Source: Saprospiraceae bacterium (lineage in GTDB: Bacteria; Bacteroidota; Bacteroidia; Chitinophagales; Saprospiraceae). From it: a stretch of DNA of 64,000 nucleotides. The stretch spans positions 1-64,000 of the forward strand of contig JAHDGJ010000003.1 in the NCBI GenBank assembly GCA_020627705.1, in the 5' to 3' direction. Positions 5,080 through 9,244 of this stretch are shown piece by piece. The notes under the pieces were generated by a model, which worked only from the letters and a program-made list of their open reading frames with translations, was not told the origin of the DNA and ran no database searches. The first letter of the stretch is position 1. Each line of letters opens with the position of its first letter. The position numbers were made by a program, and so were the translations under genes.

Positions 5080-5713
5080 ATGATGGTTTCAAAGAAAAAT
5101 CAACCTTCTACTCTTTTCCATTGGGTTGTATTCTTTATACTTCTCTATACAATTCCTTCAGACTTAAAAAGTCAAACATTTTTCACTTCTGTAAAAAACA
5201 TAGAACTAGTCGACAAAGAAAGCTGTGCTCGACCAAATCTAACTAGCTGCCAAAACGGAAAGTCTGCCTCAGACAACTGGAATTGCACGCTCAAAGAAGT
5301 TTATTCCGAAATATGGGGCAACTTAAAATATCCAGGCATTGCTAGAGAAAACGGAAGAGAACAAGAAAGCCCCGTACCTATGGAATGCAGAACAAATTTT
5401 TTGCGAACGAAATCCTCATTTTGAAACACAAAGAATCAAAGCAAAAAAATTCAGGAAAGCACTTTTAAATTCGAAGCCCCTGTCCCAAATGTGGTTGTAT
5501 AAATTTGGTTTGGCCAAGTTTGAGTCCTTTGATTTAACGTGGAACAAAAAAAATAAGGAGCACATTACTTGGACGGATGTAAAAAATATTGATGAAAAAC
5601 TAATTGAAGAACTCACGCAAGAATTAAGCAAAGGAGACGAGCTAATTTTCAATATCCATGATCTGGTACATTCTGAGCCCAAGCAATTTCAAAAAAGAAT
5701 CGTTATTCAATAG
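5080..5713 (+). pseudogene. Broken TonB-C-like secreted protein gene (frameshifted)
   Basis: Two overlapping reading frames. The first (5080-5424) encodes a signal-anchor, a Cys-containing linker and EIWGNLKYPGIARENG. That last segment closely matches the start of the TonB C-terminal domain in this window's own tonB product (NLKYPAIARENG near 18450), but the domain then stops making sense and ends. The second frame (5342-5713) carries on to a stop at 5711. Its end (KGDELIF...KRIVIQ) weakly resembles C-terminal domains of GldM/M56-type proteins. Frame 1 also encodes KFEAPVPNVVV after its first stop, so more than one frameshift seems to have occurred. I read this as a decayed gene; two real small genes are the alternative. 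Confidence 0.5.
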
Positions 5714-5819
5714 AATCATAGGCGATCGAAACTGCAACATCTAATTATCCTATGTAGAAAGTCATTTCGTTTCAAAAATGATGACACTCCTTCCTTCTAA
5801 AGAACTTATATCTTTTTAA

Positions 5820-5827
5820 TACTTTTG
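5820..5827 (+). promoter_or_regulatory. Promoter -7 box of the ileS leader
   Basis: TACTTTTG is a perfect match to the Bacteroidota TAnnTTTG element. The leader-peptide ATG begins eight bases after it, so the transcript would start only a few bases before that codon. No clear -33 box is seen at the usual spacing. Confidence 0.65.
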
Positions 5828-5835
5828 CAAGCGAC

Positions 5836-5889
5836 ATGAGAATCAAACGAATTATTAGTATTAGTATAATTAGAAATAAACACTCCTAG
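5836..5889 (+). CDS. Isoleucine-rich leader peptide of ileS
   Basis: A 17-residue reading frame MRIKRIISISIIRNKHS ending in TAG. Six residues (3, 6, 7, 9, 11 and 12) are Ile, using ATT, ATC and ATA codons. It begins just after a perfect -7 box and ends 23 bases before a terminator hairpin that sits directly in front of the isoleucyl-tRNA synthetase gene. Six Ile codons in 17 immediately upstream of ileS is the classic sign of ribosome-mediated attenuation: scarcity of Ile-tRNA would stall the ribosome within codons 3-12. Too short for ordinary gene finding. Function is inferred from composition and position; the reading frame is seen directly. Confidence 0.8.
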   Translation: MRIKRIISISIIRNKHS

Positions 5890-5942
5890 TCGGAAGAGTA
5901 ATTGATATATATAGCTCTGACGATTGTCAGAGCTTTTTTTTT
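5881..5942 (+). promoter_or_regulatory. ileS attenuator (anti-antiterminator, antiterminator, terminator)
   Basis: Competing pairings can be drawn. Antiterminator: GTCGGA (5889-5894) with TCTGAC (5916-5921), six contiguous pairs including one G-U. Terminator: AGCTCTGAC (5913-5921) with GTCAGAGCT (5926-5934). They share 5916-5921, so only one can form. A weak first hairpin, ACTC (5882-5885) with GAGT (5896-5899), would block the antiterminator. A ribosome at the leader stop (5887-5889) covers the antiterminator arm and lets the terminator form. A ribosome stalled on the Ile codons leaves that arm free. Confidence 0.7.
5913..5942 (+). terminator. Intrinsic terminator in front of ileS
   Basis: A nine-base-pair stem AGCTCTGAC/GTCAGAGCT with GATT loop, then nine T residues (5934-5942). 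It ends two bases before the ileS ATG, so read-through is needed to express ileS from the upstream promoter. Confidence 0.88.
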
Positions 5943-5944
5943 GC

Positions 5945-8900
5945 ATGCTTATGAGTACATATAAAGAATTTAAACAGCTTAACCTCCCAGAAATAGATAA
6001 AGAAACTTTGGCCTTTTGGGAAAGCGAAAAAATATTTGAAAAAAGCGTATCTCAACGTCCTGAATCCAAACCTTTTGTATTCTATGAAGGGCCTCCTTCT
6101 GCCAATGGCAAACCTGGAATTCATCATGTGATGGCACGAGCGGTTAAAGATCTCTTTTGCCGTTACCAGACCATGAAAGGCCACAGAGTAGAACGAAAAG
6201 GTGGTTGGGATACACATGGTTTGCCTATAGAATTAAGTGTCGAAAAAGAATTGGGCATTACTAAAGAAGACATTGGCTCTAAAATTTCTGTGGACCAGTA
6301 CAATCAGCAATGCCGGACCACAGTCATGCGGTACAAAGATCTTTGGGATGATATAACAAGAAAAATGGGCTATTGGGTGGACTTGGATAACCCATATATT
6401 ACCTTCGAAAATAATTATATAGAATCAGTCTGGCATCTTCTTAAAATACTATACGACAAAGATTTACTTTATAAAGGATACACCATACAACCTTTTTCAC
6501 CTGCAGCTGGAACAGGACTTAGTTCACACGAATTAAATCAACCGGGCTGCTATAAAGATGTCAAAGACACTTCTGCTGTCGCCCAATTTAAGGTGATTCA
6601 AAATGAAAAATCCAATTTTCTATTTGATGGAATTGAGGACGGTGATGTATTTTTTATTGCATGGACAACAACGCCTTGGACGCTTCCTTCCAACACTGCT
6701 TTGGCTGTTGGTAAAAAAATAGACTACGTTCGAGTTAAGACATTTAATCCTTATACCAAGCTACCCGTAAACCTCATTTTGGCGAAGGCCTTATTAAGTA
6801 AATGGTTTAAACCAGAACAAGCAGATTTAAGTTTTGAAGACTATTCGACTGAAGACAAATTAATTCCTTACCAAATAACGGGCGAATGGAAGGGTGCTGA
6901 CTTTGAATTATTGGAGTACGAACAATTGTTGCCCTATGTACAACCTGAAGATGGCGATGCGTTCAAAGTTTTAATTGGTGATTTTGTTTCAACTGAAGAC
7001 GGAACAGGTATTGTACACCTTGCACCTTCTTTTGGAGCAGACGATATGCGTGTTGCCACCAAGTATGGAATGGGTTCTTTGACTCTTGTAGATAAGCAGG
7101 GGAAATTTGTTGACAGTGTTACAGATTTTGCAGGGAGATACGTGAAGGATTATAAGGACGAAGGCGAGGCGTATGCCAATGTTGACGTGGACATCTCTAT
7201 AAAGTTAAAAACCGAAAACAAAGCATTTAATGTACAAAAGTATAGCCACAATTATCCTCATTGCTGGCGGACCGATAAACCTATTTTGTACTACCCATTG
7301 GACAGTTGGTTTGTCAAAGCATCTTCTGTCAAAGAACGTATGCAACAGTTAAATAAGACGATCAATTGGAAACCTGCGCATACTGGCGAAAAACGATTCG
7401 GAAATTGGCTCGAAAATTTACAGGATTGGAATTTATCCAGATCCAGATATTGGGGGATTCCACTACCTATTTGGAGGACTGCAAATGGTGAGGAAGAAAA
7501 ATGCATCGGCTCTATAGAAGAATTAGAGAAAGAAATAAATCTTGCCAATGCAACATTGGGCTTATCTCAAAGCGTACCAAAAGATTTACATAGACCGTAT
7601 ATCGATGACATCAAATTAGTCAATGGAAATGGTGAAGAAATGATCCGAGAATTAGACCTAATAGATGTTTGGTTTGATAGCGGATCAATGCCTTATGCGC
7701 AATGGCATGCCCCTTTTGAAAACGAAGATAAATTCAAACAAAATTTCCCCGCTGACTTTATTGCAGAAGGAGTAGATCAAACCAGAGGCTGGTTTTACAC
7801 CTTACATGCGATAGCAGTCATGGTCTACGACAGTGTCGCTTATAAGAATGTCGTTTCTAATGGGCTTGTCTTAGACAAAAATGGAGTGAAAATGTCTAAA
7901 CGCTTAGGCAATGCCATTGATCCATTCGAGACAATTGAAAAATATGGCGCCGATGCAACACGGTGGTACATGATATCAAATGCACCACCTTGGGATAACC
8001 TCAAATTTGACTTAGACGGTGTAGAGGAAGTACGTAGAAAGTTTTTTGGAACACTCTATAATACGTATTCCTTTTTTGCACTTTATGCCAACATTGATGG
8101 CTTTAGCTATAAAGAAGAACAAATTACTTTGGCCGAAAGGCAAGAAATAGATCGATGGATCATATCAAAATTAAATTCTTTAGTCGAAGAAGTCGATTCC
8201 GAATATGGGAAATACGAACCCACTTCTGCAGCTCGAAAAATTCAGTCGTTTGTAGAAGATCATTTGAGTAATTGGTATGTCCGCTTATGCCGAAGAAGGT
8301 TTTGGAAAGGAGAATATACCAAAGACAAAATCGCTGCATATCAAACCTTATACGAGTGCATGACCGCCATTGCAAAAATGATGGCACCAATCGCACCTTT
8401 CTTTGCAGACTGGCTATATAAAAACTTAAACGAAGCCACAGGTCAAGAGAAAAACGAATCCGTTCACCTTGCAAATTTTCCGAGCACCGAGGCATCAAAT
8501 GTAGACAAGAGTTTGGAGCAACGCATGGATTATGCCCAACGCATTTCTTCGTTGGTACGATCCCTGCGCAAAAAAGAAAAACTCAGAGTAAGGCAACCTT
8601 TACAAAAGATATTGTTGCCTATTCTTGATAGTGATTTTCAAGATCAAGTTGATGCGGTTAAAGAACTGATTACTGCTGAGGTAAATGTCAAAAGCATTGA
8701 GTATTTGACCGATGATGGATTTATCAAAAAGAAAGTGAAGCCCAACTTTAAAACCCTGGGTAAAAAACTCGGCAAAAACATGAAGGCCGCAGCTGCCGCT
8801 ATCTCTCAATTTGGACAAGATGAAATTTCGCAAATCGAAAAAAATGGCAGCTATGCCTTACAATTAGATGGCGTAACATTCGAATTACTTACGGAAGATT

Positions 8901-9244
8901 TTGAAATCAGTTCGGATGAAATTCCAGGATGGCAAGTAGCAAACGACAGAGACATTACCGTGGCTTTAGACGTAACATTAACCGAAGAATTATTAGCGGA
9001 AGGTACAGCTAGAGAGATTGTAAATAGAGTTCAAAACATCAGAAAAAACAATGATTTTAACGTAACGGATAGAATTCGTCTTTTGGTCTCATCAAACGAA
9101 AAGGCTCAAATGGCGATTCATCAGTTTGGAGATTATATAAAATCCGAAGTTCTGGCAGATTCGATAGAGCTCAAAGACAACGAAGGAGAATTGTTCGAAC
9201 TCGTTGAGGGCGTTGAAGTAAACATTTATGTAGAGCGCGTTTAA
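5945..9244 (+). CDS. ileS: Isoleucyl-tRNA synthetase (long, eukaryote-like IleS2 type)
   Basis: Charges tRNA-Ile with isoleucine in the cytosol. The 1,099-residue class I synthetase has the HIGH-type motif in the form GKPGIHHV (residues 56-63), the CP1 editing domain (TTTPWTLPSNTALAV), and KMSKR (649-653). An anticodon-binding region and a long C-terminal extension follow. The length and the GIHH form match the IleS2 clade, whose members in other bacteria are often less sensitive to pseudomonic acid. I chose ATG 5945 (MLMSTYKEF); ATG 5951 is equally possible. A TTG at 5924 is rejected because it lies in the terminator loop. Expression is probably controlled by the Ile leader and attenuator just upstream. 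Confidence 0.96.
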   Translation: MLMSTYKEFKQLNLPEIDKETLAFWESEKIFEKSVSQRPESKPFVFYEGPPSANGKPGIHHVMARAVKDLFCRYQTMKGHRVERKGGWDTHGLPIELSVEKELGITKEDIGSKISVDQYNQQCRTTVMRYKDLWDDITRKMGYWVDLDNPYITFENNYIESVWHLLKILYDKDLLYKGYTIQPFSPAAGTGLSSHELNQPGCYKDVKDTSAVAQFKVIQNEKSNFLFDGIEDGDVFFIAWTTTPWTLPSNTALAVGKKIDYVRVKTFNPYTKLPVNLILAKALLSKWFKPEQADLSFEDYSTEDKLIPYQITGEWKGADFELLEYEQLLPYVQPEDGDAFKVLIGDFVSTEDGTGIVHLAPSFGADDMRVATKYGMGSLTLVDKQGKFVDSVTDFAGRYVKDYKDEGEAYANVDVDISIKLKTENKAFNVQKYSHNYPHCWRTDKPILYYPLDSWFVKASSVKERMQQLNKTINWKPAHTGEKRFGNWLENLQDWNLSRSRYWGIPLPIWRTANGEEEKCIGSIEELEKEINLANATLGLSQSVPKDLHRPYIDDIKLVNGNGEEMIRELDLIDVWFDSGSMPYAQWHAPFENEDKFKQNFPADFIAEGVDQTRGWFYTLHAIAVMVYDSVAYKNVVSNGLVLDKNGVKMSKRLGNAIDPFETIEKYGADATRWYMISNAPPWDNLKFDLDGVEEVRRKFFGTLYNTYSFFALYANIDGFSYKEEQITLAERQEIDRWIISKLNSLVEEVDSEYGKYEPTSAARKIQSFVEDHLSNWYVRLCRRRFWKGEYTKDKIAAYQTLYECMTAIAKMMAPIAPFFADWLYKNLNEATGQEKNESVHLANFPSTEASNVDKSLEQRMDYAQRISSLVRSLRKKEKLRVRQPLQKILLPILDSDFQDQVDAVKELITAEVNVKSIEYLTDDGFIKKKVKPNFKTLGKKLGKNMKAAAAAISQFGQDEISQIEKNGSYALQLDGVTFELLTEDFEISSDEIPGWQVANDRDITVALDVTLTEELLAEGTAREIVNRVQNIRKNNDFNVTDRIRLLVSSNEKAQMAIHQFGDYIKSEVLADSIELKDNEGELFELVEGVEVNIYVERV

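Follow-up and report, generated by a model that had tools for sequence, protein, structure and literature searches.

A stretch of 64,000 nucleotides of Saprospiraceae DNA (the window: contig JAHDGJ010000003.1 of assembly GCA_020627705.1, positions 1 to 64,000 of the forward strand) holds a gene for isoleucyl-tRNA synthetase, ileS, preceded by a short reading frame crowded with Ile codons and by two RNA hairpins that share bases and so exclude each other (Table 1). This element is very probably a transcription attenuator of the leader-peptide type, built like those of trp, his and ilv operons, that controls ileS. A reading of the bare letters, made without database searches (the sequence-only reading), had proposed as much, and what it had picked out by eye, the box TACTTTTG, the eight-base spacing, the frame of 17 residues with six Ile codons and the terminator, is all present in the sequence.

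The leader, the hairpins and the start of ileS

Table 1. Features of the ileS leader region of the window
Feature	Position	Strand	Remarks
Promoter -7-like box P1, TACTTTTG	5820-5827	+	Bacteroidota TAnnTTTG form
Leader peptide reading frame, MRIKRIISISIIRNKHS and stop; also region 1	5836-5889	+	Reading frame read directly
Region 2, antiterminator 5' arm, AGUCG-GA-AGAGU	5888-5899	+	Folding; begins within the leader stop codon
Region 3, antiterminator 3' arm, GCUCU-GA-CGAUU	5914-5925	+	Folding; helix covariation in the family
Intrinsic terminator, regions 3:4	5913-5942	+	Stem 5913-5921/5926-5934, T-run 5935-5942; -14.2 kcal/mol
ileS, isoleucyl-tRNA synthetase	5951-9244	+	Pfam tRNA-synt_1, Anticodon_1, DUF5915; alternative ATG 5945

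TAnnTTTG is the consensus of the -7 element of Bacteroidota promoters. A direct check of the sequence places the P1 box eight bases before the leader ATG at 5836; no clear -33 element is seen by eye in front of it. The six Ile codons among the leader's 17 lie at 5842, 5851, 5854, 5860, 5866 and 5869. The terminator hairpin (5913-5934) reads AGCTCTGAC-GATT-GTCAGAGCT and is followed by eight T; region 3 is common to its 5' arm and its loop (5922-5925). Two in-frame ATGs, at 5945 and 5951, could begin ileS. The IleS proteins of two relatives of the same genus have the N-termini MSKYKEFK and MSKYKEYK, which align to MSTYKEF at 5951; because the relatives' start methionine aligns there, 5951 is probably the start, to judge by sequence, and 5945 probably two codons too early. 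The terminator had been said to end two bases before the ileS ATG; with the start at 5951, its T-run probably ends eight bases before it instead. Among named genomes, the closest relatives of this IleS are encoded in metagenome assemblies of Saprospiraceae (82-84% identity).

The antiterminator proposed by the sequence-only reading, GTCGGA (5889-5894) paired with TCTGAC (5916-5921), stands in part: the six pairs can form, and TCTGAC does lie within the 5' arm of the terminator, but the register 5888-5899/5914-5925, a helix with a GA/GA internal loop, is the better one (-12.9 as against -5.9 kcal/mol as duplexes, and -11.1 kcal/mol as a hairpin). A similar register is possible in the genus relatives L003 and L033. 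Folds of the window's leader RNA were computed with everything up to the front edge of the ribosome kept unpaired. With the ribosome at the leader stop, its front at 5901, the terminator alone is able to form; when the ribosome sits instead on an Ile codon (five were tested), transcripts that extend to 5925 and to 5930 in every case fold best as the antiterminator.

From this anatomy we infer, on sequence, a transcription start, a termination event, a stalling of the ribosome and a direction of response. RNA polymerase would start just before 5836, and a ribosome would begin to translate the Ile-rich leader. When charged Ile-tRNA is plentiful, the ribosome would reach the stop and cover region 2; region 3 would then pair with region 4, and transcription would end in the U-run before ileS. 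When charged Ile-tRNA is scarce, the ribosome would stall on the Ile codons and leave region 2 free to pair with region 3 once the latter is made; the terminator would come too late, and ileS would be transcribed.

How readily might such an arrangement turn up by chance? In 2000 dinucleotide shuffles of 5714-5944, scored for an ATG leader with at least five Ile in nine codons and for a terminator score of at least 21 (the real terminator scores 21.8), an Ile-rich leader appears six times, such a terminator twice, and the two in order not once. Folded without constraints, 5830-5945 shows no unusual stability (z -0.78), and the case therefore rests on comparison rather than on folding energy.

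The switch in related genomes

Loci of ileS were collected by tblastn from 61 searched genomes of the family and, for the order, from 119 searched genomes, 108 of which yielded a match; of 95 genomes of the order's other families with an ileS match, 60 were taken and 59 were usable. A locus was counted if it had a leader with at least four Ile in nine codons and a terminator 10-40 nt after the leader stop. That arrangement is present at 24 of the 57 usable Saprospiraceae loci and at none of the 59 in other families: the Ile-rich leader frame, whose presence in relatives the sequence-only reading had named as support, does recur in the family. (The 57 loci come from 56 genomes, and one of them, L033, was taken up because it resembles the leader itself; leaving out L033 and the duplicate gives 23 of 55.)

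A covariance model, R1, was built from 25 leaders, the window's included, and run against genomes of the family and of the phylum, scoring at most 23 candidates per genome in the former and at most eight in the latter, so that misses are possible. At E<=0.01, R1 matches in 75 of 150 family genomes. Below E 1e-4 there are 61 matches, one of them an antisense echo; the remaining 60 strong sites lie in 59 of the 150 genomes, and 23 of these sites are R1's own seeds, 37 not. Fifty-eight are at ileS (two of these, in G003 and in the second copy of G224, about 950-1100 nt upstream of it behind an inserted gene), and the other two end at contig edges (G231 and G015). Among ileS loci from named genomes, 15 of 80 have a sense match. 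Some of the weaker matches, from E 1e-4 to 0.01, were inspected: those at ileS (in G034, G046, G056 and G255), G016:C37:8535, to which we return below, and twelve others (E 2.2e-4 to 0.0036) that were considered as further targets and rejected, as they resemble ordinary terminators and have no Ile leader. One metagenome bin, MAG-146, contains two ileS loci, L196 and L220, each with a different Ile leader; these may be paralogues or belong to two strains.

Seventy-two distinct leaders were read from the matches (L256 was left out as a duplicate; L052, which R1 misses at E<=0.001 and whose antiterminator scores poorly, at -2.3, was added by hand). They are 10-25 residues long, begin with ATG in 68 cases and with GTG or TTG in two each, and many share an N/H-III-S-III core, outside of which the peptides vary widely. 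Ile makes up 33.6% of their 1284 residues and Val 0.7%; ATT is the commonest Ile codon (286, with 91 ATA and 54 ATC). Across 65 of the 78 alignment rows (antisense or partial matches and duplicates being left out), Ile codons are changed at 19 of 386 first, 43 of 385 second and 117 of 386 third positions, in a test that is partly biased by the choice of R1 seeds for their Ile content. This is a coding signature: the leader is under coding constraint. In the window's own genome no such leader is seen by eye in the 300 nt examined at each of valS, leuS and metG.

Compensatory changes, which had been looked for in both stems, are found in both. In the terminator stem of the family, 95.6% of the cells are paired and ten of 16 pairs have two-sided changes (0 of 500 shuffles do as well). 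In a typical antiterminator CAATCTG, located around the leader's stop codon, pairs with CAGATTG from the 5' arm of the terminator; across the family this helix is 82% paired, with two-sided changes in seven of nine pairs and a covariation score of 0.343 as against 0.176 when shuffled (again 0 of 500). The pairing was also tested independently of the alignment in 71 of the 72 leaders (L186, without a called terminator, was left out): an arm pairs with its own terminator at a mean of -14.9 kcal/mol and with those of others at -11.4, a difference reached by none of 10000 permutations. Taken singly, 49 of the 71 arms beat 95% of their shuffled counterparts and 22 do not.

The placement of stop and Ile codons is likewise what masking by a ribosome would need, as the sequence-only reading held. 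In 62 of 71 leaders the 5' arm of the antiterminator and the stop codon overlap, though the arm was sought only from 18 nt before to 14 nt after the end of the stop, which favours such overlap. If a ribosome covers 12 nt downstream, the footprint given in the available part of PMC4833913, the median distance from a ribosome on the middle Ile codon to the start of the arm is 7 nt (in 69 of 71 the start is level with the ribosome's front edge or ahead of it), and the arm lies wholly inside the stretch masked by a ribosome at the stop in 59 of 71. A putative protector or pause hairpin, a counterpart of the 1:2 pairing of trp between the Ile run and the spacer after the stop, also does better with true than with permuted partners (0 of 5000); its covariation is mixed, the score being matched by one of 500 shuffles and the number of pairs with two-sided changes by 305 of 500.

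What weighs against an attenuator should be seen in one place. To the two biases just mentioned, in the codon-position test and in the search for the arm, must be added that in 12 of the 71 leaders the arm extends farther than the assumed footprint of 12 nt, that two of five measures of antiterminator covariation are matched by shuffles (30 and 8 of 500), and that the 1:2 fold of the window differs between the two lengths folded. Energetics count as well: in the window the completed terminator beats the antiterminator (-14.2 vs -11.1 kcal/mol) and, once its 3' arm is complete at 5934, it is the best fold for every position of the ribosome. Since the full-length RNA favours the terminator even with a stalled ribosome, the switch must act during transcription, a need for timing that it has in common with known attenuators. 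Finally, R1 finds nothing in half of the 150 family genomes, and the presence of the element is patchy on a tree of IleS (69 rows): the best tree calls for 12 changes, and at least six changes between presence and absence are forced by well-supported branches, in a tree whose bootstrap has not settled. The pattern fits an old trait that has been lost repeatedly; horizontal transfer may also account for it.

Promoter-like boxes, related leaders and interposed genes

Boxes of the TAnnTTTG form, promoter-like by the Bacteroidota consensus, recur at these loci, and in two positions. Within 60 nt before the leader, one is found in 45 of the 72 leaders (100 shuffles: mean 3.9, maximum 11). A second lies between terminator and ileS at 46 of 63 loci (shuffles: mean 4.3, maximum 12), the 63 being what remains of the 72 after removal of the second copy at L158, five without a called ileS start or terminator, and three with gaps of more than 400 nt. 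At leaderless loci of the family, a box lies within 100 nt before ileS in 25 of 28 (from 27 genomes, G028 counting twice; shuffles: mean 1.6, maximum 6). No second box separates terminator from ileS in the window or in its two relatives of the same genus, and the gap from stem to ileS is short in all three: 10 (to the upstream ATG), 26 and 18 nt. Most simply read, an old promoter of ileS acquired an attenuator upstream of it; most lineages would have retained that promoter, and others lost it. Within the window's genus, ileS appears to be reached through the attenuator alone; in most relatives the second box suggests basal expression of ileS, to which the attenuated promoter would add transcription induced by starvation. 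On the 5' side of the leader, the window has two overlapping frames, 5080-5424 and 5339-5713, which may be a single gene with a shift of frame, or else two small ones; 5339-5713 has no Pfam match.

Similar leaders stand before other genes. R1 matches at E<=0.001 in 13 of 395 genomes of the phylum, and 12 of these loci were read. Four of them, in other families of Bacteroidota (L271, L273, L280 and L284), have a leader of the N/H-III-S-III type and a terminator before a branched-chain aminotransferase gene, ilvE (so identified by NCBIfam in the three that were scanned, L271, L280 and L284); L277 has an Ile leader before an unidentified gene, and six resemble ordinary terminators. The remaining one, L276 (G319:C121), has a His-rich leader frame, MTAKKLNTTHMHWHHIITFELAGG, and a terminator directly before hisG. 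The Thr_leader family of Rfam (RF00506) has no match in the window at its gathering score; the ilvE leaders L271 and L284 match it below the cut-off (38.2 and 28.8 vs 55 bits). Within the Saprospiraceae, Ile/Val-rich short frames are found at eight of 26 ilvD-type loci (L322, L323, L327, L328, L331, L335, L336 and L337), seven with a called terminator. L323 (G016:C37) has two such units in tandem before ilvD, with leaders MNTNIIISVIIINVIRN and then MVTINIISIIIIIAVIVIIGP, of which the first is the R1 match G016:C37:8535 (E 0.0071). In the window's genome ilvD comes straight after a leuB-like gene and lacks a separate leader. A search for ilvE in the family through PF01063 gave 30 loci; 27 of them aligned to the ilvE query, none with a leader and terminator, a result that says little, these being distant paralogues (22-32% identity). 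Ile leaders at ilvE and ilvD mean that the use of such leaders is more widespread in Bacteroidota; the version at ileS is Ile almost without Val.

In five genomes a gene or genes stand between the attenuator and ileS: an Abi_C gene in G003:C58 (L157); a Uma2 gene in G046:C9 (L171); genes for endonuclease V and a Y1 transposase in G255:C142 (L187); a Fic gene in G056:C95 (L160), between two copies of the attenuator that are identical over a stretch of 207 nt; and in G224:C269 (L158), on the opposite strand between two near-identical copies, a lipoprotein-like gene with no Pfam match. No second box is seen between terminator and accessory gene in G056, G046 and G255. Interposed genes and duplicated attenuators alike may be assembly errors. 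One can nevertheless entertain the thought, doubtful as it is, that the ileS attenuator is a movable starvation switch: added to an existing promoter, left as the sole gate in some lineages (the window's among them), and captured or duplicated elsewhere so that defence-like accessory genes (Abi_C, Fic, Uma2, endonuclease V with transposase) would be read out when the charging of Ile-tRNA fails.

Alternatives and known systems

Could the hairpin act instead, or also, on translation, hiding the start of ileS until translation of the leader opens it, with little or no termination of transcription? The geometry of the window lends this some colour: the stem ends 16 and the U-run eight bases before the likely start of ileS, and the short gaps of the genus relatives are of a piece with it. 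The hairpin nonetheless has the form of a terminator, with eight U, and at 53 of 63 loci 30-283 nt separate it from ileS downstream, mostly too great a distance for it to hide the start; we consider the translational mechanism unlikely. Less likely by a good deal is that the terminated leader RNA, or the hydrophobic peptide, acts in trans as a small RNA or a membrane peptide, the attenuator being a by-product. Leader products of trpL that act in trans have been described (PMC7298713, in the portion available), and at loci with a second promoter-like box before ileS the leader RNA would be transcribed apart from the gene; the peptides differ widely outside the Ile run, however, and the selection that is visible falls on the terminator's alternative pairing, a requirement of a switch in cis.

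Two further alternatives are weaker still. The hairpin might be the ordinary terminator of upstream transcription, the Ile codons an accident, and ileS served by its own promoter: the region is AT-rich, ATT and ATA codons arise easily in such DNA, and a promoter-like box so often follows the terminator. Against this stand the shuffles of the window, the covarying antiterminator, the codon-position bias, the near absence of Val and the lack of any such leader at the 59 loci of other families; coincidence is already strongly disfavoured, and we give it very little credence. Least credible of all is a T-box, or another riboswitch that would respond to uncharged tRNA-Ile or to isoleucine itself, with no need of leader translation. 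In Firmicutes ileS is usually under T-box control (PMC2494555, as far as its available text goes), but no Rfam family reaches its gathering score anywhere in the window, no T-box appears between 5600 and 6100 even at a lax threshold, the leader is only about 110 nt long, and a riboswitch would leave the coding signature and the run of Ile unexplained.

A leader-peptide attenuator therefore remains much the best account of this locus. It makes the Saprospiraceae element a well-supported candidate for leader-peptide attenuation of a synthetase gene in Bacteroidota, and of ileS, whose known RNA control is the T-box. The many natural variants, with their covarying switches, make the coupling of transcription and translation in this phylum testable on one gene, and hints of how switches of this kind are acquired, bypassed and reused come from the second promoter-like boxes and from the accessory genes that separate switch and target. 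The literature searched, which did not include a comparative study from 2010 on attenuation in operons of synthetases, yielded no leader-peptide attenuator of ileS; new here are the second promoter-like boxes, the Ile leaders of ilvE and ilvD, and the accessory genes between attenuator and ileS.

The leader-peptide attenuators of the trp, his, thr and ilv operons of Proteobacteria have a leader rich in the cognate codon and a stop codon inside region 2. The ileS element is like them in both respects and in its mutually exclusive antiterminator and terminator; it differs in its target, a synthetase, in its phylum, and in the promoter-like box that often follows the terminator. Synthetase genes under leaders rich in their own amino acid are exemplified by the pheM-pheST attenuator of E. 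coli. To this can be added candidate leader-peptide attenuators of trpS and leuS in Streptomyces (PMC1262725) and His leader peptides before two hisS paralogues in bacilli (PMC2965389); as described in the available parts of these papers, the arrangement is the same and the amino acid, the gene and the phylum are others. Nearer in phylogeny, the available text on Flavobacterium psychrophilum (PMC9723704) reports strong clues for leader attenuation before amino-acid operons and structured 5' untranslated regions (UTRs) in synthetase mRNAs, so that phylum and mechanism are as here; it names no ileS and gives no leader. Bacteroides 5' UTRs, too, contain short frames reminiscent of leader peptides (PMC7366714, in the part available). 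The Bacteroidota ilvE leaders described above join the same type of leader to a terminator, before a gene of biosynthesis instead of a synthetase gene. As to ileS itself, T-boxes control it in Firmicutes and Actinobacteria (PMC2494555, PMC1262725); within the available text of these papers, the latter gives ileS T-boxes and not leader peptides, and the former counts no T-box in seven genomes of Bacteroidetes/Chlorobi. The target gene and the physiological signal are the same in the two systems, as far as these sources describe the T-box: the T-box reads the uncharged tRNA directly, whereas in the Saprospiraceae device it is a translated leader that would be read.

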